From Desulfamplus sp. (GTDB lineage Bacteria; Desulfobacterota; Desulfobacteria; Desulfobacterales; Desulfobacteraceae): DNA of 64,000 bases. Of the stretch, positions 43,528-54,611 are shown piece after piece; position 1 is the first letter of the stretch; the number at the start of each line of letters is the position of its first letter. The stretch lies in NCBI GenBank assembly GCA_015232455.1, contig JADFZQ010000008.1, forward strand, positions 62,001-126,000. Reading direction: 5' to 3'. The notes under the pieces are model-generated. The model had not been told where the DNA came from and searched no databases. It saw only the letters and a list, made by a program, of their open reading frames with translations. Position numbers and translations under genes: made by a program.

Positions 43528-44880
43528 TTAGCTCACCCGTTCCCCACGTTTAAATACCTCAGTTACTGGTGAGACTCCAGCATGATACGCTAAAATTGCA
43601 GGAGAATTGCCATCCATCAAAAGAAAATCAGCTTGTTTACCAATATCTAAACTACCAACCCTATCTGCCATTCCAATTGCGTATGCACTATTTAAAGTTG
43701 CGGCAACTAATGCCTCTGCTGGTGTCATTCCCATATTTAGAACTGCAAGACCAATTACAAAAGGCATTGATTCACAATAACTTGACCCTGGATTACAGTC
43801 AGTTGCAAGGGCAACAGGAAGATTTTTCTCAATCATAACCCTTGCTCTTGCATAAGGTTTACGCAAACTATATGCAGTTGCTGGCAAAAGTGTTGCTACA
43901 ACTCCAGATTTTGCCATTTTTTCTATATTTACATCACTTGCAGCGAGAAGATGGTCAGCAGATGAAGCACAAAGCTCTGCTGCAAGACCAGCACCACCAA
44001 GATCATGGACTTCATCAGCATGTATTTTTATCTTCAGCCCATGATTGATAGCAGCTTCAAGCACCTTTCTACCTTGTTCTATTGAAAAGACTCCATTTTC
44101 GCAGAAAATATCGCAATAAGATGCAATTCCTTGAGCCTTTACCGCGGGTAACATCTCTTCAATTACAAGAGAAATATATGCGTCTGGATTTTCTCTATAA
44201 GCAGTTGGAATAGCATGTGCACCAAGAAAAGTTGCAACAATATCAAGAGGTGTGGTTTTATGAACAAGATCAATTGTCCGAAGCATTTTAAGCTCATTTT
44301 GTGTATCAAGTCCATATCCGCTTTTAATTTCAAGCGTTGTAGTGCCAAACTTCATAGCAGAAAGAGCATGTTTTAAAGTGTTGATATACAGATCATCTTC
44401 TGACGCTTTTAACACTTCTCTTACTGATGAGAGAATGCCACCTCCTTGTTTTAATATTTCAAGATATGGAGAGCCATTAAGCCTCATCTCAAATTCTGAC
44501 TCTCTAAGCTTTGCAAAACAGATATGAGTATGTGGGTCAACAAATCCCGGAATCAAACATTTCCCTTGGCAATCAATAGTTTTATCTATTTTATTTAGAT
44601 TATCCCTATTGTTGATTTCAGAAACATCTTCAGTATTGGTTGTCTCTTCATTATCTTCATCTTCATTATAGTCAGCATCATTTTCAAGATTATCAATATT
44701 ACAAATATCATTAATCCCTTTTATGTCGTCAATATTTCCAATATCAACGATGATTCCGTTTTTCACAAGAATTGCCCCATTCTCAAAATGGTTTAGAACT
44801 CCTTGAGAAGCTCCTGCACACGGTTTGCCTTTATCAATTGGAGTATAAATATTTGCATTTTTAAATAAGATTGTGGTCAT
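43528..44880 (-). CDS. hutI: Imidazolonepropionase
   Basis: A 450-residue amidohydrolase. Metal site FVDPHTHICFAKLRESEFEM, EIKSGYGLDTQNELKML, HADEVHDLGGAGLAAEL and ALATDCNPGSSYCESMPF. It opens imidazolone-5-propionate to formiminoglutamate. The family has about 400 residues; the excess is an Asn/Asp/Glu insertion at residues ~53-105 (ENDADYNEDEDNEETTNTED), between the N-terminal barrel strands and the metal site. It lies 12 bp after hutU. Confidence 0.94.
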   Translation of the reverse strand: MTTILFKNANIYTPIDKGKPCAGASQGVLNHFENGAILVKNGIIVDIGNIDDIKGINDICNIDNLENDADYNEDEDNEETTNTEDVSEINNRDNLNKIDKTIDCQGKCLIPGFVDPHTHICFAKLRESEFEMRLNGSPYLEILKQGGGILSSVREVLKASEDDLYINTLKHALSAMKFGTTTLEIKSGYGLDTQNELKMLRTIDLVHKTTPLDIVATFLGAHAIPTAYRENPDAYISLVIEEMLPAVKAQGIASYCDIFCENGVFSIEQGRKVLEAAINHGLKIKIHADEVHDLGGAGLAAELCASSADHLLAASDVNIEKMAKSGVVATLLPATAYSLRKPYARARVMIEKNLPVALATDCNPGSSYCESMPFVIGLAVLNMGMTPAEALVAATLNSAYAIGMADRVGSLDIGKQADFLLMDGNSPAILAYHAGVSPVTEVFKRGERVS

Positions 44881-44891
44881 TATCCCATCTC

Positions 44892-47081
44892 CTAAAAAAT
44901 ATCTTCAATAGCCTTATCAATCAACTTATCATCTGGCAGAAACGGAACAGTAACCTGATCTCCGTTGCTATTTTCCATGTTATAGTTGATCGCTACCTCC
45001 ATAGCATTTTTGTTTCTTGCCCAATTTCTTCTTGCAACTCCACCCATTACGTCCCATGACATAGCAGACCTGATAATATTGTCAACTCTATCGCTTCCAT
45101 CAAGAACTAAACCAAATCCGCCGTTAATCGCCTTTCCAATTCCAGTACCGCCTCCATTATGAAGAGCAACAAGCGACATTCCCCGTGCAGCATTTCCAGC
45201 AAAACAGTGGGTTGCCATGTCAGCACAGACATTACTGCCATCTTTTATATTTGCTGTCTCTCTAAATGGTGAGTCTGTGCCGCCCGGATCATGGTGATCC
45301 CGCCCAAGCATAATTGGTCCAACTTCTCCGTTTCTAACCATATCGTTAAATTTCAAGGCAATATTAACTCTACCAGCAGCATCTTGATACAAAATTCTTG
45401 CCTGACTTCCTACAACAAGCCTGTTTTTTAAAGCATCTCTTATCCAGATATAATTGTCTCTATCTTCTGCTCTTCTGTCTGGATCAATGCAAGCCATTGC
45501 TGCTTTATCTGTTTTTTCCAAATCTTCTGGTTTACAGCTTAAACAGACCCAGCGAAATGGTCCATATCCATAGTCAAAAATTGGTCCCATAATATCTTCA
45601 AAATATGATGGAAATACAAAACCATCTTTAGCATCAACTCCATTTCTTGTAACCTCAACAACTCCAGCATCAAAAACAGCCTTTAAAAATGCGTTTCCAT
45701 AATCAAAAAAGAAAGTCCCTTGTTTTGAAATCTCTTTAATAAGCTCATAGTGTTTTTTAAGGCTTTTATCTACCAATTTTTTAAACATTGCTCTATCTTC
45801 AGCAAGAAGGCGTGTCCTCTCTTCAAAAGTTACTCCTTGTGGGCAATATCCGCCATCATACACAACGTGGCAGGAAGTCTGATCAGAGAGCAAATCAACT
45901 TTGAAATAGCCATCATTAAAATTATCATGGCTTTTATTACTATCTTTTTCTTCTACTTTATTATTATCTTCTCTTTGCATTTGCTCGGCAATGTTATTTC
46001 TTCTTACAATATCCTCTAACAGATCAACAATATTTCCATGAAATGCAATTGAAGTTGCTGATTTCTCTTTTACAGCTTTAGATGCTATTGATAAAACTTC
46101 ATCAAGATCAGATGAAACAACATCAACCCAACCCTGCTCATGTCGTGTCTTGATTCTTGATAGATCAACTTCAGCAGTAATTGATACGGCACCAGCTATC
46201 TTAGCAGCTTTTGGCTGTGCCCCACTCATTCCGCCAAGCCCTGATGATATAAATAAAAGACCTGCAAGATCACCATCAGCCTCAACTCCACAAACCTTTC
46301 TTCCAGCATTTAAAAGAGTGTTGTATGTGCCATGAACAATGCCTTGAGGTCCTATATACATCCAACCGCCAGCAGTCATCTGACCATAAGATGATACACC
46401 CATCTGAGCTGCAATTTCCCAATCATCAGGGTTATCGTATAATCCCACCATCAATCCATTTGTAATAATCACACGAGGGTCTTCAGGCGATGATTTAAAC
46501 AGCCCCAAAGGGTGTCCAGATTGCATAACAAGTGTCTGATTTTCCGTCATAACCTCTAAATATTTTTTAATCAACCTGTATTGCATCCAGTTTTGGCAGA
46601 CACTTCCTGTTTCCCCATAAGTTACAAGCTCATAAGGGTAGAGTGCAACATCAAAGTCAAGGTTGTTGTCAATCATCAACTGAAAAGCTTTGCCAGCAAG
46701 ACAGTTGCCTTTATAGTTATCAATTGGTTTAGCCTTGATACAGCCCCAATCATCACGAGTTTGTAATTTATCATTTTGTGATATTGGATTTTGTGGTTCT
46801 GAGTTACTGCTGTTTTCTTCAATTTTATATGGTCTAAACCTATAACCATAAATTCGTCCGCGTGTTTTAAGTTCATCTAAAAACTCTGGAATCAAAGCGG
46901 CGTGATGTTTCTCTGGAATGTAACGCAAAGCATTTGCCAACGCTGTTTTAGTTTGGCTTTTGCTTAACCTAAAACCTCTTGCTGGTGCACGGCGGATTCC
47001 CTCTCTAAATGGTGGCATCTCTGGAAGTTCATCATCAAGCCTTATTTTCATGGCTTGGGATATATCTTTATTTGTAATCAT
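44892..47081 (-). CDS. hutU: Urocanate hydratase (long form)
   Basis: A 729-residue protein, longer than the ~555-residue classical enzyme. Urocanase motifs: YETGSVCQNW-like VTYGETGSVCQNWMQYRLIK, GLMVGLYDNPDDWE, GGWMYIGPQGIVHGTY, ISSGLGGMSGAQPKAAK (NAD+ region), and GGGTGIGKAINGGFGLVLDG. It hydrates urocanate to imidazolone propionate using tightly bound NAD+. Two Asn/Ser/Lys-rich insertions (SSNSEPQNPISQNDKLQ and DNNKVEEKDSNKSHDNFNDG) lie in surface regions. Confidence 0.95.
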   Translation of the reverse strand: MITNKDISQAMKIRLDDELPEMPPFREGIRRAPARGFRLSKSQTKTALANALRYIPEKHHAALIPEFLDELKTRGRIYGYRFRPYKIEENSSNSEPQNPISQNDKLQTRDDWGCIKAKPIDNYKGNCLAGKAFQLMIDNNLDFDVALYPYELVTYGETGSVCQNWMQYRLIKKYLEVMTENQTLVMQSGHPLGLFKSSPEDPRVIITNGLMVGLYDNPDDWEIAAQMGVSSYGQMTAGGWMYIGPQGIVHGTYNTLLNAGRKVCGVEADGDLAGLLFISSGLGGMSGAQPKAAKIAGAVSITAEVDLSRIKTRHEQGWVDVVSSDLDEVLSIASKAVKEKSATSIAFHGNIVDLLEDIVRRNNIAEQMQREDNNKVEEKDSNKSHDNFNDGYFKVDLLSDQTSCHVVYDGGYCPQGVTFEERTRLLAEDRAMFKKLVDKSLKKHYELIKEISKQGTFFFDYGNAFLKAVFDAGVVEVTRNGVDAKDGFVFPSYFEDIMGPIFDYGYGPFRWVCLSCKPEDLEKTDKAAMACIDPDRRAEDRDNYIWIRDALKNRLVVGSQARILYQDAAGRVNIALKFNDMVRNGEVGPIMLGRDHHDPGGTDSPFRETANIKDGSNVCADMATHCFAGNAARGMSLVALHNGGGTGIGKAINGGFGLVLDGSDRVDNIIRSAMSWDVMGGVARRNWARNKNAMEVAINYNMENSNGDQVTVPFLPDDKLIDKAIEDIF

Positions 47082-47130
47082 TTTACTTACTCCTTGTTTT
47101 ATATCGAAAATTATAAAATCTTGTGTTTAC

Positions 47131-48960
47131 TTAAATCTCCTCCCAACACAACCTATCAAACCCCAACGACACCACAGCAAAACTCTTTAATCTGAAATCT
47201 TTTCCTGAATATCTCTCTTTCAATATTTGGCTGTAGCCTTTTACTTGCTCAAGAGCATCTGTCATTGCCTCACGCATTTGGGGAAGATTTTCAAGCTCCT
47301 CAACTGACAATGCTTTTGCCTCTTCTCCGCTTACTCCAGCAGTTGCAAGGCTCACAAATTTAAACTCAATCAGCACATCAAAAAGCTGGAATTTCCGCAT
47401 ATCAGGGCGGATTATCATGGTTAAATCGGCAAACCGCCTGTCAATCTCTTTTTCCGAATCCATGATAAATAAAATATCGTTGTAAAGAAGCGTTAAGAAT
47501 GCTGTTTTAACGGTCAGTTCATTTGCCCAACGATAATCGCGGTTGCTAAAGATTTTGAAATAGCGATTTTCAACAAAACTACAAAGCTCTTTTATGTCGC
47601 CTTTTTGATAGAGCTTTTCAGCGGCACTTTTGCCATAGTCTCTATCCATTGGCTGAGGAAGCAGCATTTCATGGATTTGATCAATGTAGAGCCTTTTCAT
47701 CACTGTATTTGGAACTTTAAATCGAGTTTTAGCATGTATATCTTGCCCTGCAATTGTAAGAACTCCGAAATAGTAGAGAAACGAGACAAGAAAAGCCTTA
47801 TCGTGGCTTTTGTCTGATAACATACGCTCAATTCCAAATTTTTGGCTGATCTCTTCAATCGCAACTTCATGGTCGTCTTGCATCAAATCCAAAATAAGCT
47901 GCCGCCCTCCATTAATTTTAGAGATATAATCTAATTTTGCCTGTTCCATTGAAAGATTATGGTCAAGCATATTTTTTGGGGGTTTGCAGCTCTCTTGCAG
48001 GTTATCAAAAAAATAGAGTGCTAAAGTTGGATTATAGACTAAATTTGAATAGTCGTTTCCACTATCAATTGGGTCATCTGTTATATTATTGTCAGTAATA
48101 TCAACTGAAAAACGATAACCATTATAATAAATACGCATCAGTTTAATCAGCTCTTGTGCTTTAGCTTGCTCAATACCGCACTCTTGGGCAATTGTGTTTA
48201 CAGCATCTTCAACCTCTTTTGCAGTGAATCCGCATAGGTGATTATATTTAGGCTTAAAATATATGTTTTTGGCAATGTTAAATCCGCTTGTAATATCGCT
48301 CATAACCACAGGCGACACACCAGTAATGAAAATTCTGTCAAACACTGAATTTGATGCAGCAGCTTTAACATTTTTAAACACTGCTTTAAGTATCCCCTCT
48401 TTTTGCACCAGTGATTCATATTTCTCGCTTTTCATGATTGATGACATCATAACCTCATTGGCAAAATTATCATATTCGTCAATAAGAAGAAAAACTGGCA
48501 GATTTACAGACTGCATGGCATTAGATAAAGATTTAATTGAACTTAACGCATCTGCCTCATCTATTCTTATTTCTGGAATGTCATAATTTTTGTAATTCAG
48601 TATAAATTGCCTGATACACAAATTTATATGATTAAAAAGCGATTGACGAATATCGTCCAATGAGCCTGAAGCATCAATACACGAAAAATCCCATTTTAGA
48701 ATAAAATATGAATTGCGAAGAGGCGTTGGATTTTTTCCAATTTTGAGCTTACCAAACATATCGTCAAACTGATCTTTTTTAGCGACATCGTAGTAGTTCT
48801 CAAGCATGGATAAAAGAAGGGATTTGCCAAATCTGCGGGGCCGGAGGAAAAGTTGGAACTTATCTTTTTCTATACTGCTTATCAAATCTGTTCTATCACA
48901 ATAAAAGTAGTCTTTAAGCACGATTTCTCTAAAATCGCATATTCCATAAGGCAGCTTCAT
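47131..48960 (-). CDS. AAA-ATPase-like / PD-(D/E)XK family protein (DUF1703 type)
   Basis: A 609-residue protein. N-terminal AAA_ATPase_like domain: LPYGICDFREIVLKDYFYCD, then LRPRRFGKSLLLSMLENYYD (Walker A region) and FLLIDEYDNFANEV (Walker B). The C-terminal region holds DUF1703-like nuclease-fold residues (LIEFKFVSLA) after a linker. Such genes occur in many copies in anaerobes with unknown function. It has no known role in histidine use and interrupts hutC-hutU; it is probably a late insertion. Confidence 0.85.
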   Translation of the reverse strand: MKLPYGICDFREIVLKDYFYCDRTDLISSIEKDKFQLFLRPRRFGKSLLLSMLENYYDVAKKDQFDDMFGKLKIGKNPTPLRNSYFILKWDFSCIDASGSLDDIRQSLFNHINLCIRQFILNYKNYDIPEIRIDEADALSSIKSLSNAMQSVNLPVFLLIDEYDNFANEVMMSSIMKSEKYESLVQKEGILKAVFKNVKAAASNSVFDRIFITGVSPVVMSDITSGFNIAKNIYFKPKYNHLCGFTAKEVEDAVNTIAQECGIEQAKAQELIKLMRIYYNGYRFSVDITDNNITDDPIDSGNDYSNLVYNPTLALYFFDNLQESCKPPKNMLDHNLSMEQAKLDYISKINGGRQLILDLMQDDHEVAIEEISQKFGIERMLSDKSHDKAFLVSFLYYFGVLTIAGQDIHAKTRFKVPNTVMKRLYIDQIHEMLLPQPMDRDYGKSAAEKLYQKGDIKELCSFVENRYFKIFSNRDYRWANELTVKTAFLTLLYNDILFIMDSEKEIDRRFADLTMIIRPDMRKFQLFDVLIEFKFVSLATAGVSGEEAKALSVEELENLPQMREAMTDALEQVKGYSQILKERYSGKDFRLKSFAVVSLGFDRLCWEEI

Positions 48961-48996
48961 ATCTTCTCCTCCGATATTGTTTGGTTATATAAATTT

Positions 48997-49734
48997 TTAT
49001 ACAGTATCTAATTTATATACACCGGAAAGCGTCTTAAACCTTCCTCCAATACGATAAATAGAACCAGGATATGTCATACGAGTATGGGTAACAACTCTTT
49101 GGTTATCCCATGTTTGACGGTGCAGAACAAGGCACGGTTCATGTGGTTCCATGCTAAGAAGTTTTCGAGCCATAGCATCTGGAAGAACTGCCTCAACAAT
49201 ATGTTCTACATCAGTTAAAGCAGCAACACTGAGCAAATATTTTGAAGTTGTGATGGCTGTAAAGTCTTGATTAATATAATCAGGAGCAGATAGAGGATTG
49301 ACATATTGATCAGCAAGCATTACAGGCTTTCCGCTGTTTTTATGCACAATAACAGAATGGTAAAGCAGTGTACCAATTGGTATCTCCATAGCAGCAGCAA
49401 CTTCAGGATAGGCTTGCTCTTCTCTTAAAAAATGCACTTCAGATGAATGCACTCCACCGCGGCTTTTAATCTCCTCATCAATACTGCTTATCTCAAACAG
49501 AGCTGTTAAAGGTTTGGGGTGAGCAATATATGTTCCTACTCCTTGAATCCGTATTAGAAGCCCGCGCTCGGTCATCTCCCGTAATGCACGATTTACAGTC
49601 ATTCGAGAGACACCAAGTTCACGCACAAGCTGATTTTCAGAAGGTATTTTACTATCAGGCTTCCACTCTCCTGAGTGGATATGCTGCATAATATAATCTT
49701 TTACCTGTTCATACAGAGCTTTTGGACCTTGCAT
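48997..49734 (-). CDS. hutC: HutC-type GntR-family repressor
   Basis: A 245-residue regulator: N-terminal winged helix (IPSENQLVRELGVSRMTVNR, LREMTERGLLIRIQGVGTYI) and a C-terminal UTRA ligand domain (EVHFLREEQAYPEVAAAMEI...ADQYVNPLSAPDY, VLHRQTWDNQRVVTHTRMTY). HutC proteins bind urocanate and repress hut genes. A candidate operator (TTGTATTTACAA) lies upstream of the first gene of the cluster. Confidence 0.9.
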   Translation of the reverse strand: MQGPKALYEQVKDYIMQHIHSGEWKPDSKIPSENQLVRELGVSRMTVNRALREMTERGLLIRIQGVGTYIAHPKPLTALFEISSIDEEIKSRGGVHSSEVHFLREEQAYPEVAAAMEIPIGTLLYHSVIVHKNSGKPVMLADQYVNPLSAPDYINQDFTAITTSKYLLSVAALTDVEHIVEAVLPDAMARKLLSMEPHEPCLVLHRQTWDNQRVVTHTRMTYPGSIYRIGGRFKTLSGVYKLDTV

Positions 49735-49810
49735 TGTGCTATTAACCTCTCTTTTCCAGCCCTGAAATAAATTTAAGTGCTAAAAAAAATTTAAAAAATA
49801 TCATAAGCAT

Positions 49811-49843
49811 AGATTTGACAACTTTTAAAAAGTTGTCAAATCT
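49811..49843. repeat. 33-bp palindrome, copy 3
   Basis: Perfect copy, 13 bases after the stop of the MttB-family gene that ends at 49857, and upstream of hutC. Confidence 0.8.
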
Positions 49844-49856
49844 TTAAATTATATCT

Positions 49857-51326
49857 TTAACCTTTCTCCATTTTACTTTGAATCTCTTTTATTCCTTCAA
49901 TTCTCAATCTCTCAAGCTCTGCTGTTACTTTGTCATCAAGCGGTTCTGGCTTGTGGGTCTCAACTATTTTTCGCACCTCTTCTTTTACTCTATCTTCCAT
50001 TGTTGGTCTGCCTGATGCTTCCCACTGAGATATAGATTTGTGATTTAATAGTTTAGCCTGCCAAAGCTCATTTCTAAAATGCTGAATTGTATGTTTTTGC
50101 TGCAAGAAGTGTCCTCCTGGACCAACTGCCTCAATAACCTCACGGGCAAGGGTTTCTCGATTTACAGTAATTCCTTCAATAAACCGCTTTGCCATTCCAA
50201 CAATCTCATTTCCCATGACAAGTTGCTCAACAGAACACGCCATACCAGCAGCCATATATCCAACATCATGGATAAGATTTAATCCTGCAAGCCCTTGACT
50301 CAATATTGAAAACGCAGATTCAAGACCTGCTTGAGCATCAAGGCATTTTGAATCTGTTGCACCTGCAAGCCCCCAAGTTGGAAGCCCAAAAGATTGAGCA
50401 ACTTCAGCTTGAGCAGACAGCCCTAAGCTGTTTTCAGGAAGTCCCATTGCCATCAATCCTGAGGACATATTTAAAATTCCAACATTTGCACTCATCGCAA
50501 CTGGGCAGCCAGTTTTGCGAAGTTGTGCAATTGTAATGTGAATTAAAGATTCTGCTGTCATCTGAACAATCATGCCAGCCATTGTTACAGGTCCGGTTGC
50601 CCCTGCCTGAACAGTTGATCCTGGCAGTTGAGGCATATAACGGTCAGCAGATACAAATATTCTATCAACTATCTCATCTGGAAATGTTAAAGGAGCAATA
50701 GCTTCAGGATAGGCAATTATAAAGGGTTTTCTCCTAAGTTCGTCCATTCCGCCTGCTACAACTGCTGCCATCTCATAGACATATTCGCAGCCAAGCGGGG
50801 AGTAACCAATAAAAACCATTGGTTTTGTTGTGTTTGCAGCAACGACTGGAAACTCATGCACATCTGCTGTGTTTACAGGCACATCAAGCGATGAACCCAT
50901 TGGCATTACAAAATCTATATTCTTAAGAGCATCAGCAATTTTTGCCCCTCTTGCAATGTCGCTAAGTTGAGTCTCTCTAAATTCACCAGTAAAAGGGTCT
51001 TTGGTGTTTGGGCTTGCTGTAGAAGTTCCGTAGTGGCTTTTGCGTCCTTCAAGCTCCATTGAGCGTTCGCCTTTACGGTTATAAATAGTCCAACCTTTTG
51101 GAGTGGTTGCAAGACAAGATTCCACAATATATTGAGGAATGCGGATAATATCATCTTTTACAATTGCCCCAGCTTGAGCAAACATCTTTTGAGCCTCTTT
51201 GTGTTTGCACCTAAATCCTACTCTTTCAATAACATCATAAGCAGCTTGTCTTATTTCCCATATCTGATCTTCAGATAAAATACGCATACTTACGGAACGC
51301 TTTTCTGTTTGTGAAGATTGAAGCAT
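49857..51326 (-). CDS. MttB-family methyltransferase (non-pyrrolysine), hut-linked (1)
   Basis: A 489-residue member of the trimethylamine methyltransferase superfamily: TIYNRKGERSMELEGRKSHY, VQAGATGPVTMAGMIVQMTA, WGLAGATDSKCLDAQAGLES and GHFLQQKHTIQHFRNELWQA. The whole frame is open with no in-frame TAG, so it is not a pyrrolysine enzyme. Characterised non-pyrrolysine members move a methyl group from quaternary amines (glycine betaine, proline betaine, carnitine) to a corrinoid protein. It lies between hutH and hutC. No corrinoid partner is encoded in the window. A histidine-derived betaine is a reasonable substrate to test. Confidence 0.88.
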   Translation of the reverse strand: MLQSSQTEKRSVSMRILSEDQIWEIRQAAYDVIERVGFRCKHKEAQKMFAQAGAIVKDDIIRIPQYIVESCLATTPKGWTIYNRKGERSMELEGRKSHYGTSTASPNTKDPFTGEFRETQLSDIARGAKIADALKNIDFVMPMGSSLDVPVNTADVHEFPVVAANTTKPMVFIGYSPLGCEYVYEMAAVVAGGMDELRRKPFIIAYPEAIAPLTFPDEIVDRIFVSADRYMPQLPGSTVQAGATGPVTMAGMIVQMTAESLIHITIAQLRKTGCPVAMSANVGILNMSSGLMAMGLPENSLGLSAQAEVAQSFGLPTWGLAGATDSKCLDAQAGLESAFSILSQGLAGLNLIHDVGYMAAGMACSVEQLVMGNEIVGMAKRFIEGITVNRETLAREVIEAVGPGGHFLQQKHTIQHFRNELWQAKLLNHKSISQWEASGRPTMEDRVKEEVRKIVETHKPEPLDDKVTAELERLRIEGIKEIQSKMEKG

Positions 51327-51407
51327 TTTTTTTCTCCAAGTTTATAATTAGTTATAGATAGTCTTGCCCATATTTTTTCACCCGTATTTTTCGATAATTG
51401 TTGCATA

Positions 51408-51440
51408 AGATTTGACAATTTTTAAAAAGTTGTCAAATCT
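51408..51440. repeat. 33-bp palindrome, copy 4
   Basis: One mismatch to the perfect form (GACAATTTTT), six bases after the hutH stop. Confidence 0.8.
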
Positions 51441-51446
51441 TTCAAA

Positions 51447-52991
51447 TTAGTTCCCTTTAAGAGTACCAACCGCAGCTTCCACTGCATCAACAATCTCTCC
51501 GCTTTTTAATACCTTTACCATAGTCTCAATGTCAAGGTAGAGGTCTCTATCTTTATCAAGATATGGAACATGACTACGGACAACTTCATAAGCAACGCGA
51601 GTTCCAACTCCGCCTTTCATAGGTCTTGTCTCATTGAGAAGATCATAAGCTTGAGCTGCACATAAAAGCTCAATTGCCACAACATGCTCAACATTATCAA
51701 GAATCTCACGAGTCTGACGAATTGCAATTGTTCCCATGCTGACATGATCCTCTTTATTGGCTGATGTTGGGATTGAATCAACACAAGCAGGGTGGGCAAG
51801 CACTTTATTTTCAGATACAAGGGCTGCTGCTGCATACTGCCCTATCATGTATCCAGAATTCAAACCTCCATTATTGACTAGAAATGGAGGAAGATCGCTA
51901 AGTTGTGGATTAACAAGCCTCTCAATTCTTCTCTCTGAGACACTTCCAAGCTCTGCAATTCCCATAGATAAATAGTCTGCTGCCATTGCAATGGGCTGTC
52001 CGTGAAAGTTTCCACCGAGACGCACCTCTTCAGTATCTGCAAATATTAAAGGGTTTGTGGTTGTTGAGTTTATCTCAATATCAATTACCCGCATTGCGTG
52101 AGCAACTGCATCTTTGCTTGCTCCATGAATCTGCGGGGCACATCTTAAAGTGTAAGCATCTTGAATTCTTGCACATCCTTGATGGGAATCAATTATTTCA
52201 CTTCCTTGAATCATTCTTAAAATATTGTCTGCTGTTGCAATTTGTCCTGGGTGAGGGCGGATTTGGTGGATTCTTGGGTCAAACTCGGAGTTGCTGCCCA
52301 TTAAAACTTCAAGACTCATAGCACAGGCAATGTCAGCGGTTTTGGATAGACGCACAGCATCATTGACCACAAGCACACCAATTGCAGTCATAACTTGAGT
52401 GCCATTAATTAGTGCAAGCCCTTCTCCTCCTTGCAGTTTTAAAGGTTCAAGTCCAAGCTGTCTTAAAACTTCACCTCCAGCCATTCGTTTTCCATTATAT
52501 TCAGCCTCACCTCTGCCGATAAGAACTAATCCTAAGTGAGATGTTGGGGCTAAATCTCCACTTGAGCCGACTGAACCTTTTTCTGGTATAATTGGAGAAA
52601 CTCCTTTATTTAAAAAGGTCAGCATGTAGCGAATTGTCTCCATTCTGCAGCCAGAATAACCAAGAGATAAATCATGCACCCGTAACGCCATGATTGCCCT
52701 AACAACTTCTGACGGCAGAGGTCTTCCAACGCCGGCAGCATGACTCATCAAAATATTTTCTTGAAGCTGGCTTGTATCTTTTTCTGGAATTATGACGTTG
52801 CACATTGCACCAAAGCCTGTTGTAATGCCATAAATTACCTTTTTTTCTTTTACCCATTTTCTAATTAATGCACTTGTCTTTTCTACTCGTGCTTCTCCTT
52901 CTTGAGAAAAATCGGCAAAAGCATTGTTTCTGGCTACTGCTACTAAATCACTATTTGTTATGGGTTGTTTATCAAGCAAGATGGTTTGCAT
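51447..52991 (-). CDS. hutH: Histidine ammonia-lyase family enzyme
   Basis: A 514-residue enzyme with YGITTGFGAMCNV (catalytic Tyr53-54 region) and KGSVGSSGDLAPTSHLG. The MIO-forming tripeptide at 143-145 is Ser-Ser-Gly rather than the usual Ala-Ser-Gly. Also NGTQVMTAIGVLVVND and SANKEDHVSMGTIAIRQTRE. It should release ammonia, or a substituted amine, to give urocanate, which HutU and HutI then process. The flanking MttB paralogues raise the option that an N-methylated histidine is used. Confidence 0.92.
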   Translation of the reverse strand: MQTILLDKQPITNSDLVAVARNNAFADFSQEGEARVEKTSALIRKWVKEKKVIYGITTGFGAMCNVIIPEKDTSQLQENILMSHAAGVGRPLPSEVVRAIMALRVHDLSLGYSGCRMETIRYMLTFLNKGVSPIIPEKGSVGSSGDLAPTSHLGLVLIGRGEAEYNGKRMAGGEVLRQLGLEPLKLQGGEGLALINGTQVMTAIGVLVVNDAVRLSKTADIACAMSLEVLMGSNSEFDPRIHQIRPHPGQIATADNILRMIQGSEIIDSHQGCARIQDAYTLRCAPQIHGASKDAVAHAMRVIDIEINSTTTNPLIFADTEEVRLGGNFHGQPIAMAADYLSMGIAELGSVSERRIERLVNPQLSDLPPFLVNNGGLNSGYMIGQYAAAALVSENKVLAHPACVDSIPTSANKEDHVSMGTIAIRQTREILDNVEHVVAIELLCAAQAYDLLNETRPMKGGVGTRVAYEVVRSHVPYLDKDRDLYLDIETMVKVLKSGEIVDAVEAAVGTLKGN

Positions 52992-53080
52992 TTTATTTTG
53001 TCCTTTTTATTTACGCCCCGAAATAAATTTTAACCTTTTTCAAAATGGTTTTATTATAATTTTTGCAGCAAAGCATAGAT

Positions 53081-53113
53081 AGATTTGACAACTTTTAAAA
53101 CGTTGTCAAATCT
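53081..53113. repeat. 33-bp palindrome, copy 5
   Basis: One mismatch (AAAACGTTGTC), 28 bases after the stop of the second MttB-family gene. Confidence 0.8.
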
Positions 53114-53141
53114 TCAAAATATATGTTGTTGTTAAATTTAT

Positions 53142-54611
53142 TTAGCTAACCATGAAATTCTTCACAATATTCTCAATTGCCTGCTGTTTTTCTGTTTCAA
53201 CTTGCAATGGTTTATGGTTGTTAAGAATCTTATGAAGTTTAGTTCTTGCTCGATCAAGAAGTGAGGTTCTTCCTTGCTCTGCCCATTTTTCATGGCTTTG
53301 ACGACAGAAAAGCTCGGGCTTCCACTGAACTTTTCTTAAATGTTTGAATGTATGGGGTTGTGTTAAAAACTGTCCTTGTTCTGCACCTTTTGGAATAACA
53401 TCAAGTGCGAGAGTGTCATCATTAATTGGGATTCCTTTGTGCATTCTTCTTATTTGGTCAACCATTTCGTTTACAATTATTATCATCTCAAGACTTCCTG
53501 TAAGCCCAAAGTCAAGGTAGCCAACATCATGGTTTAGATTTGAACCAGCAAAAATAGACATAAAAGCCTCAAGTCCAGCTTCATAAGATGCCTGCATATC
53601 AGGAATTTGAGCATCGCTTGTGCCGCCATAACCCCAGTTTGGAATATCAAGGTAGTTGCTCATCTCAACCATTGCCATATAAGTCATCATATATTCAGGA
53701 GCATTGTATGAACATTGACTTGTTGCCATATCAAGAACAGCAGCACCAATACCCATTAAAAATGGCGAACCTTCAGCAGCAAGCTGATGAATTACCATTC
53801 CAAAGAACGATTCAGCAAGCCCTTGAACAATATGACCAGCAATTGTCATTGGTGCAGTTGAGCCTGCAATTGGAGCTGGCGAATAGATAACAGGTGATGC
53901 AGTTTCAGCACAAAATATAAGTTTATCAAGGCTGCTAAATGGGTGTTTTAACGGGCTTATCGGCTCATCATATTGAATCCAATATGGTTTTTCTCTTAGC
54001 TCTTTTTCTGAACCTCTTAAAACTTTAGAAATTTCCCACATTGCTTGAAGGTCTTTTTTGCCATCTGCTGTATTTACAATTGGCTTTGTTGAATTTTCCA
54101 TCATTGCCTTAAAGCTCTCTAAATAGGAGAAAGCGGGATTTATATCGTGCGGGTGGGCAAAAGACATTATAAAATCAATATTTGGAAGAGCATCGCAAAC
54201 TTTTGCAGCAATTTTAATATCTTCAAGAGTTGTGCGGTGTCTCTCCATCTTTTCTGATTCAACAGACCACATCAAATCAGAGCCTGTGCCAAAATATGCT
54301 CTTCTGCCGCCAAGGTCCATTGCATGGTTACCTTCACGATCATAAATTGCAATATTATTTGGAACGGTCTTGCGTGCTTTTTCAACAAGTGATGCTGGAA
54401 TTTTAATTAGATTGCTATCTTCATTAATACCTTTTTCAACTTTGCAACCTGCATCTTTAAGAAGTTTTAAAGCACCTTCGTGCATTACCTGCATTCCATT
54501 CTCTTCAATTACCTGCAAAGCAGAGTCATAGAGTCTTTTTTTATCATTGTCGCTTAAAAATGAGAGTTTTGGTTCAAAGCCTATTTCATAATTTGTGTTT
54601 GGCATTGGCAT
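53142..54611 (-). CDS. MttB-family methyltransferase (non-pyrrolysine), hut-linked (2)
   Basis: A 489-residue paralogue of the other MttB-family protein of this cluster: IYDREGNHAMDLGGRRAYFG, APIAGSTAPMTIAGHIVQGL, WGYGGTSDAQIPDMQASYEA and GQFLTQPHTFKHLRKVQWKP. It has no in-frame TAG, so no pyrrolysine. It is the first gene of the hut cluster, with the candidate HutC operator about 130 bp upstream, so it is expected to be induced with histidine (or urocanate) catabolism. The two paralogues have equal length but clearly different sequence; they may act on successive methyl groups or form a heteromer. Confidence 0.88.
   Translation of the reverse strand: MPMPNTNYEIGFEPKLSFLSDNDKKRLYDSALQVIEENGMQVMHEGALKLLKDAGCKVEKGINEDSNLIKIPASLVEKARKTVPNNIAIYDREGNHAMDLGGRRAYFGTGSDLMWSVESEKMERHRTTLEDIKIAAKVCDALPNIDFIMSFAHPHDINPAFSYLESFKAMMENSTKPIVNTADGKKDLQAMWEISKVLRGSEKELREKPYWIQYDEPISPLKHPFSSLDKLIFCAETASPVIYSPAPIAGSTAPMTIAGHIVQGLAESFFGMVIHQLAAEGSPFLMGIGAAVLDMATSQCSYNAPEYMMTYMAMVEMSNYLDIPNWGYGGTSDAQIPDMQASYEAGLEAFMSIFAGSNLNHDVGYLDFGLTGSLEMIIIVNEMVDQIRRMHKGIPINDDTLALDVIPKGAEQGQFLTQPHTFKHLRKVQWKPELFCRQSHEKWAEQGRTSLLDRARTKLHKILNNHKPLQVETEKQQAIENIVKNFMVS

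Follow-up and report, generated by a model that had tools for sequence, protein, structure and literature searches.

In a 64,000-nucleotide stretch of DNA from Desulfamplus sp., a sulfate reducer of the Desulfobacterales (assembly GCA_015232455.1, contig JADFZQ010000008.1, positions 62,001 to 126,000; here called the window), two genes for MttB-superfamily methyltransferases, MttBa and MttBb, share an operon with genes for histidine utilization (hut). On balance, we favor the reading that this operon serves the anaerobic use of a histidine betaine, that is, an N-alpha-methylated histidine and most simply hercynine, as food; MttB demethylation of a histidine betaine that feeds the Hut pathway is the likely class of pathway. 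Within that class, we infer the substrate, the order of the steps, the number of methyl groups removed by each MttB, the corrinoid partner, and the role of an AOR-like enzyme found in relatives. The original prediction for this stretch, that a methylated histidine is demethylated by the MttBs and the product passed to the Hut enzymes, draws support from several lines: MttB genes are linked to hut genes in three phyla, some complete gene sets include a corrinoid protein and a methyl-tetrahydrofolate (methyl-THF) methyltransferase, and a transporter of the betaine type precedes a Bacillota cluster. A specialized HutH, which was also part of that prediction, did not hold up.

The operon and its methyltransferases

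The seven genes run along the minus strand in the order MttBa, HutH, MttBb, HutC, an AAA-ATPase-like gene, HutU, and HutI, just as had been predicted, and Pfam and NCBIfam profile searches concur with the gene names given then. MttBa (53142..54611), a non-pyrrolysine methyltransferase, comes first; HutH (51447..52991), a histidine ammonia-lyase (TIGR01225, 672 bits versus a cut-off of 539), separates it from MttBb (49857..51326), the second and different methyltransferase. These are followed by HutC (48997..49734), a GntR-family repressor of histidine utilization (TIGR02018, 278 bits versus 220), the AAA-ATPase_like protein (47131..48960; PF09820, with a sub-threshold PDDEXK_9 match), HutU (44892..47081), a urocanate hydratase of the long form (729 amino acids) that passes its model narrowly (TIGR01228, 414.5 bits versus 375), and HutI (43528..44880), an imidazolonepropionase (TIGR01224, 464 bits versus 298). 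The intergenic gaps from MttBa to HutI are 150, 120, 122, 36, 49, and 11 bases. The closest named MttBa record, at 98% identity, comes from a Desulfamplus metagenome-assembled genome (MAG; locus L124).

PF06253 covers the whole length of both MttBa (260 bits) and MttBb (320 bits), against a threshold of 25, and the two proteins are 33% identical to each other. The expectation that neither carries an in-frame TAG was borne out: none of the four genes behind the genome's five MttB matches has an internal stop, and both window proteins fall below the 525-bit cut-off of the pyrrolysine-MttB equivalog TIGR02369 (MttBb, 401 bits; MttBa, 365 bits). Where pyrrolysine would stand, MttBa has Thr and MttBb has Ala. 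In the accessible text of PMC8604678, the characterized non-pyrrolysine members of the superfamily use quaternary amines.

The best PDB matches of MttBa are the MtgB structures 2qne (188 bits) and 9yce (187 bits). According to the part of PMC6855144 that is accessible, Y94, N199, R309, H345, and F353 contact glycine betaine in a docking model of MtgB. At the aligned places, MttBa has S111, E216, W326, H361, and G369 (numbered as positions of the MtgB alignment plus one), with the His alone of the five residues conserved. The Glu at 216 is shared by 65 of 70 MttBa and 26 of 27 MttBb rows; Asn is the commonest residue at this position in 31 other MttBs (n = 14).

HutH and HutU are ordinary enzymes

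HutH clears its family cut-off and has both the 4-methylideneimidazole-5-one (MIO) triad and the histidine pocket, the positions checked being those that we take to line the pocket of the Pseudomonas enzyme. Across 51 HutH-type sequences (some genomes are represented twice), each pocket residue is invariant or altered in one sequence, and the triad begins with Ala in 40, with Ser in 10, and with Glu in 1. HutH had been called a variant on account of its Ser-Ser-Gly motif. The motif is there, but it is no sign of a special enzyme: it occurs in all of the Desulfamplus HutHs read (the window, L092, L094, L203, L204, and L205; a second HutH match of Desulfamplus magnetovallimortis was left out), two loci without MttBa among them, and again in HutH of L216, a 12.7-kb locus within which no MttB is found. 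With loci of genomes seen twice left out, MttBa-linked HutHs carry Ala-Ser-Gly in 13 cases and Ser-Ser-Gly in 5, and for 9 (fragments or divergent lyases) no motif was obtained. We rejected the idea of a special HutH, since the motif is independent of MttBa linkage and the triad and pocket are ordinary.

The original prediction also allowed for direct elimination of hercynine to urocanate, a reaction that would fall to HutH. Ergothionase, which per the accessible portion of PMC13405746 lacks MIO and eliminates trimethylamine from ergothioneine, is the more distant match to HutH (229 bits versus 444 and 415 for the two best histidine ammonia-lyases), and the Ser-Ser-Gly of the window HutH is taken to form MIO, so that direct elimination is not favored. 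HutU likewise scores far below the thiourocanate hydratase models NF058530 and NF058531 (300 and 334 bits versus cut-offs of 930 and 880). Since HutH and HutU are of ordinary kinds, what arrives at them should be a plain histidine skeleton; the pathway thus appears to hand HutH plain histidine or something very similar.

MttB and hut genes are linked in three phyla

A search for the same gene association elsewhere, as proposed with the original prediction, found linkage of MttB and hut genes in Desulfobacterota, Actinomycetota, and Bacillota. Among the 389 genomes of the order, 38 have an MttBa match (E ≤ 1e-120), always a single one, and 171 have HutH (E ≤ 1e-90). Of the 38 genomes with MttBa, 33 have HutH somewhere, compared to 138 of the 351 that have no MttBa match (Fisher p, 1e-8). 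HutH is no more than 10 kb from MttBa in 14 of 38 cases versus 2 of 81 for other MttBs among the matches listed (Fisher p, 1e-6), the control being those MttBs, down to near E = 1e-65, that occur in genomes with a listed HutH; both p values are too small, because the genomes are related and independence is overstated. Twelve of the 14 linked pairs come from listed coordinates and two from tblastn (G332, and G075 with a HutH fragment), and the 14 genomes span seven families. In the MttBa tree, the window's clade comprises eight rows, all eight of which are hut linked. The two control MttBs close to HutH (G002 and G062), together with that of G051, which is just beyond 10 kb, form one further MttB clade. 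Three Desulfobacterales loci (L213, L214, and L215) hold a further MttB clade, 37 to 38% identical to MttBa and approximately 5 to 10 kb from HutH, with a corrinoid protein nearby; this clade is another candidate for the same job.

We examined 70 MttBa copies, 44 outside and 26 inside an Actinomycetota clade. Within 11 kb, 27 have a hut gene, 33 an AOR-like gene, and 14 MttBb. Inside Desulfamplus, the composition of the locus varies. G192 and G329 (loci L203 and L204) have a HutH that is 92% identical and carries Ser-Ser-Gly, together with MttBb, HutU, and HutI, and neither genome gives an MttBa match at E ≤ 1e-120. In D. magnetovallimortis (L094 and L125), MttBa, HutH, HutC, HutU, HutI, and FtcD stand together, and an MttBb-like gene (47%) is located away from this cluster.

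The Actinomycetota supply complete sets. In three MAG loci (L154, L159, and L169), genes for AOR, one or more MttBs, MttBa (52% identity), HutH, MttC, HutI, FtcD, FchA, HutU, and the methyl-THF methyltransferase form a one-strand run (the L159 stretch starts inside AOR), preceded in two of the three by a Dpp-type transporter. In L154, HutH (685 bits versus 539), HutI, FtcD, HutU, and the methyltransferase pass their NCBIfam cut-offs; the corrinoid protein and FchA are matches below cut-off. Six of the 27 hut-linked MttBa copies depend on divergent HutH-like lyases at four loci (L155, L156, L162, and L173), which are 37 to 40% identical to the window HutH and lie opposite MttBa; leaving them out reduces the linked copies to 21. 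Three of the four were scored, at 483 to 501 bits versus the HutH cut-off of 539, and the MIO Ser is Cys in those of L155, L162, and L173. By these features, the divergent proteins may not be histidine lyases.

For Bacillota, 24 more distant MttB loci (L179 to L202) were first intended as a negative control, but because eight of them held hut genes, we report them as evidence. All eight contain two adjacent, different MttBs, which fall into two separate clades (the pair in L192 is 42% identical). HutH is present in five (L187, L189, L192, L193, and L200), HutU in L190 and L198, and HutU with HutI in L201; several of these stretches stop at contig ends. In Desulfosporosinus (L187 and L193) and Paradesulfitobacterium ferrireducens (L192), the set comprises MttC, MeTr, HutH, HutU, FtcD, and HutI, with FchA in addition in L187 and L193. 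The second Bacillota MttB equals MttBa at 9 of 10 inspected sites despite 38% overall identity; we picked these sites in part for their invariance in MttBa, and the location of the added ones in the pocket is an assumption. Two of the residues, Y328 and F368, are common to MttBa and the second Bacillota MttB and rare elsewhere.

Upstream of the MttBs in L192 lie genes for a sigma-54 activator, a ProV-type ATPase (TIGR01186, 341 bits versus 327), and an OpuAC binding protein (PF04069, 173 bits versus 21). By resemblance, similar transporter genes precede the MttBs in L187, L189, and L201 and are absent from that place in L193. The L192 binding protein resembles the ergothioneine transporter EgtU (107 bits) less closely than OsmF (156 bits). 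Taken singly, no other observation points as clearly to a histidine betaine as this placement of a betaine-type importer ahead of MttB and hut genes. Genes for molybdenum enzymes of the xanthine dehydrogenase family also occur in or beside the clusters of L187, L189, and L190 (L190:6718-10391, where one protein was checked against Pfam).

Proposed route and partner genes

In the proposed route, for which hercynine would be the simplest choice of substrate, MttBa, aided by MttBb, would transfer methyl groups from the quaternary and then perhaps the tertiary alpha-nitrogen to a corrinoid protein in the Co(I) state. A methyltransferase would pass them from there to tetrahydrofolate (THF), and oxidation by Wood-Ljungdahl enzymes would be possible. 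The demethylated product, either histidine or an N-methylhistidine that loses methylamine, would be deaminated by the ordinary HutH, and HutU, HutI, and FtcD would lead to glutamate plus a second one-carbon unit on folate.

Outside the operon, the genome has the partners that a quaternary-amine:THF system calls for. Of its two B12-binding_2 matches, one is an MtbC/MtgC-type corrinoid protein (L055:9119-9775) that scores below the cut-off of each model and lies approximately 80 kb from the operon on the same contig. Adjoining it is a methyl-THF:corrinoid methyltransferase (L055:9803-10603; NF005719, 331 bits versus 259), and approximately 7 kb before it is an AcsV/RamA-type corrinoid activator (L055:234-2303; 657 bits versus the AcsV cut-off of 800). 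The corrinoid protein and the methyltransferase of this locus presumably serve the MttBs of the window. The genome also encodes an acetyl-CoA synthase match (PF03598) and FtcD, as well as five SBP_bac_5 binding-protein genes, two of them on the contig of the operon.

Weighing the alternatives

Several observations weigh against the use of a histidine betaine. A weak point is the count of methyl groups: hercynine has three and the operon two MttBs, and since we know of no characterized non-pyrrolysine MttB that continues past one methyl, the fate of the other two methyls is unexplained. Some loci pair HutH with a single MttB, either MttBa alone (L094 and L095) or MttBb alone (L203 and L204), which strict stepwise demethylation would not predict. 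Most of the 70 MttBa copies have no visible hut gene within 11 kb, although many contigs are short, and most Actinomycetota copies occur without the full operon, some MAGs holding several. No HutH match was found in 5 of the 38 genomes of the order that have MttBa (G015, G031, G080, G084, and G301), two of which are 97% complete. Just 6 of the 10 inspected sites have the same residue in the first Bacillota MttB and in MttBa, and a search of the Desulfamplus genome itself for OpuAC and BCCT transporters gave zero matches.

The strongest rival reading takes ring-methylated histidines (1- or 3-methylhistidine) as the substrates, because one demethylation would do: a single step would yield histidine, and two MttBs could serve the two isomers. 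This reading accommodates the lone MttBs beside HutH, and the Dpp-type transporters near 20 of the 70 MttBa copies would suit histidine peptides. We nevertheless regard it as unlikely, given the quaternary amines used by the characterized non-pyrrolysine enzymes and the OpuAC/ProV betaine-type transporter in the L192 operon; no dipeptidase turned up in the clusters, though no search was aimed at one. Alternatively, glycine betaine or other unrelated betaines could be the substrates of the MttBs, with proximity to hut genes reflecting shared regulation or catabolic islands. Desulfobacterales genomes can each hold many MttBs, MttBa occurs in genomes that lack a HutH match, and the Desulfamplus genome is without OpuAC and BCCT, all of which would suit such a reading. 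It is made improbable by the way HutH follows particular MttB clades in the listed matches (14 of 38 versus 2 of 81, those two in one further clade), by the recurrence of the association in three phyla, and by the replacement of Y94, N199, R309, and F353 of MtgB with S, E, W, and G in MttBa.

The last alternative has HutH removing trimethylamine from hercynine to leave urocanate, with the MttBs demethylating the trimethylamine. Ergothionase, a member of the same superfamily, does the equivalent with ergothioneine (accessible part of PMC13405746), but it does so without MIO, whereas in HutH both the MIO triad and the full histidine pocket are preserved; in addition, the window MttBs lack the pyrrolysine that the trimethylamine enzyme has. 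We give this possibility hardly any weight and retain demethylation of a histidine betaine by the MttBs as the favored reading.

An AOR-like enzyme in two phyla

The AOR-like tungsten enzyme near 33 of the 70 MttBa copies occurs in Desulfobacterota and Actinomycetota, and in none of the 24 distant Bacillota-type loci. The closest structures to this protein (L042:6027-7910 and relatives) are AOR and FOR, and the Cys motif and the first acidic site are kept. In all 18 aligned AOR-like proteins, the place of the Pyrococcus AOR His that we take to be catalytic is occupied by Tyr (10) or Phe (8), a replacement that hints that this subfamily may carry out other chemistry. The enzyme might serve demethylation as an oxidase of formaldehyde or another aldehyde; the aligned catalytic His is missing in 18 of 18. 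The Desulfamplus genome has an AOR of its own on another contig (C55:171510-173270), 44% identical to the one beside MttBa in L042, and none of the other query genes lies close to it.

One use for such an enzyme would be the desulfurization of ergothioneine: in the clusters with AOR, it would remove the sulfur, two or three MttBs would strip the trimethylammonium group to corrinoid and THF, and the resulting histidine would enter the Hut pathway. Because its scores set HutU apart from thiourocanate enzymes, the sulfur would have to leave earlier, as it does in this scheme. We consider the scheme, in which two phyla would have the ergothioneine version and Bacillota a hercynine-only one, quite unlikely; AOR is absent from the 24 Bacillota-type loci and from the window operon, the genome's own copy being elsewhere.

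Other genes in and around the clusters

The AAA-ATPase-like gene is probably a passenger. It holds the same position in the 98% relative L092, but we rejected it as a part of the pathway because L203 and L204 lack it, and it has no visible role. A different gene sits between HutU and HutI in L203 and L204: that of L203 (L203:3486-5624) is a Cache-type chemoreceptor by Pfam, and that of L204 (L204:7836-9983) starts alike. It is perhaps a sensor for the substrate.

Another recurrent neighbor of MttB or hut genes is a 4Fe-4S protein of 330 to 370 amino acids that carries CNCR and CNCC motifs as well as two ferredoxin motifs (examples are L192:8703-9692, L154:13792-14895, and L043:14636-15745). 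Apart from one fragment, it was seen at 16 loci, which belong to the three phyla above and to a single Anaerolineales MAG, and neither Pfam nor NCBIfam has a family model for its whole length. Elsewhere in the window, an IS200-type transposase (PF01797) lies at 1416-1883.

Significance and comparison with known systems

Hercynine and ergothioneine are widely made by fungi, actinobacteria, and cyanobacteria. If the proposed route is correct, anaerobes could draw methyl groups, carbon, and nitrogen from either compound, with no trimethylamine released; if the ergothioneine scheme were true as well, two phyla would use ergothioneine without oxygen and without trimethylamine, and Bacillota would have a version limited to hercynine. 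Direct testing is possible in named organisms that carry the clusters, the sulfate and metal reducers Desulfosporosinus, Paradesulfitobacterium, and D. magnetovallimortis. The accessible text of PMC8604678 states that the substrates of most MttB-superfamily genes are unknown, and the word hercynine does not occur in that text; linkage to hut genes assigns a concrete substrate class to several MttB clades. Our literature search, which worked from titles and abstract openings and for the most part did not cover subscription journals, found no paper that joins hercynine with MttB or MttB with histidine ammonia-lyase and no description of such an anaerobic hercynine demethylation pathway.

The nearest known system is the glycine betaine:THF system of Desulfitobacterium hafniense, which like the one proposed here combines a pyrrolysine-free MttB-superfamily protein (MtgB) with an MtgC-like corrinoid protein and a methyl-THF methyltransferase. 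The operon differs in its hut linkage, in its two different MttBs, and in a docked site reduced to the His, and its product would go on to HutH instead of remaining a dimethyl amine. MtpB, MtcB, MtyB, and MthB of Eubacterium limosum are likewise MttB paralogues that each handle one betaine or choline compound and pass methyl groups via corrinoid to THF, but in the accessible parts of PMC8604678 and PMC12155760 none of them has a substrate with a histidine skeleton. With the ergothionase/thiourocanate route, the proposed pathway shares the degradation of a histidine betaine through a urocanate-type intermediate. That route relies on an MIO-free lyase that releases trimethylamine, whereas the window HutH is of the MIO type and HutU is far under the thiourocanate hydratase cut-offs. 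The classical Hut pathway (HutH-HutU-HutI with FtcD/FchA) is matched by HutH, HutU, HutI, and HutC of the window, all above their NCBIfam cut-offs; it is set apart from the present system by the two MttBs inside the operon and, in the other two phyla, by the addition of genes for a methyl-THF methyltransferase and a corrinoid protein. Known enzyme types are combined here, and the novelty would lie in their coupling and in the class of substrate.

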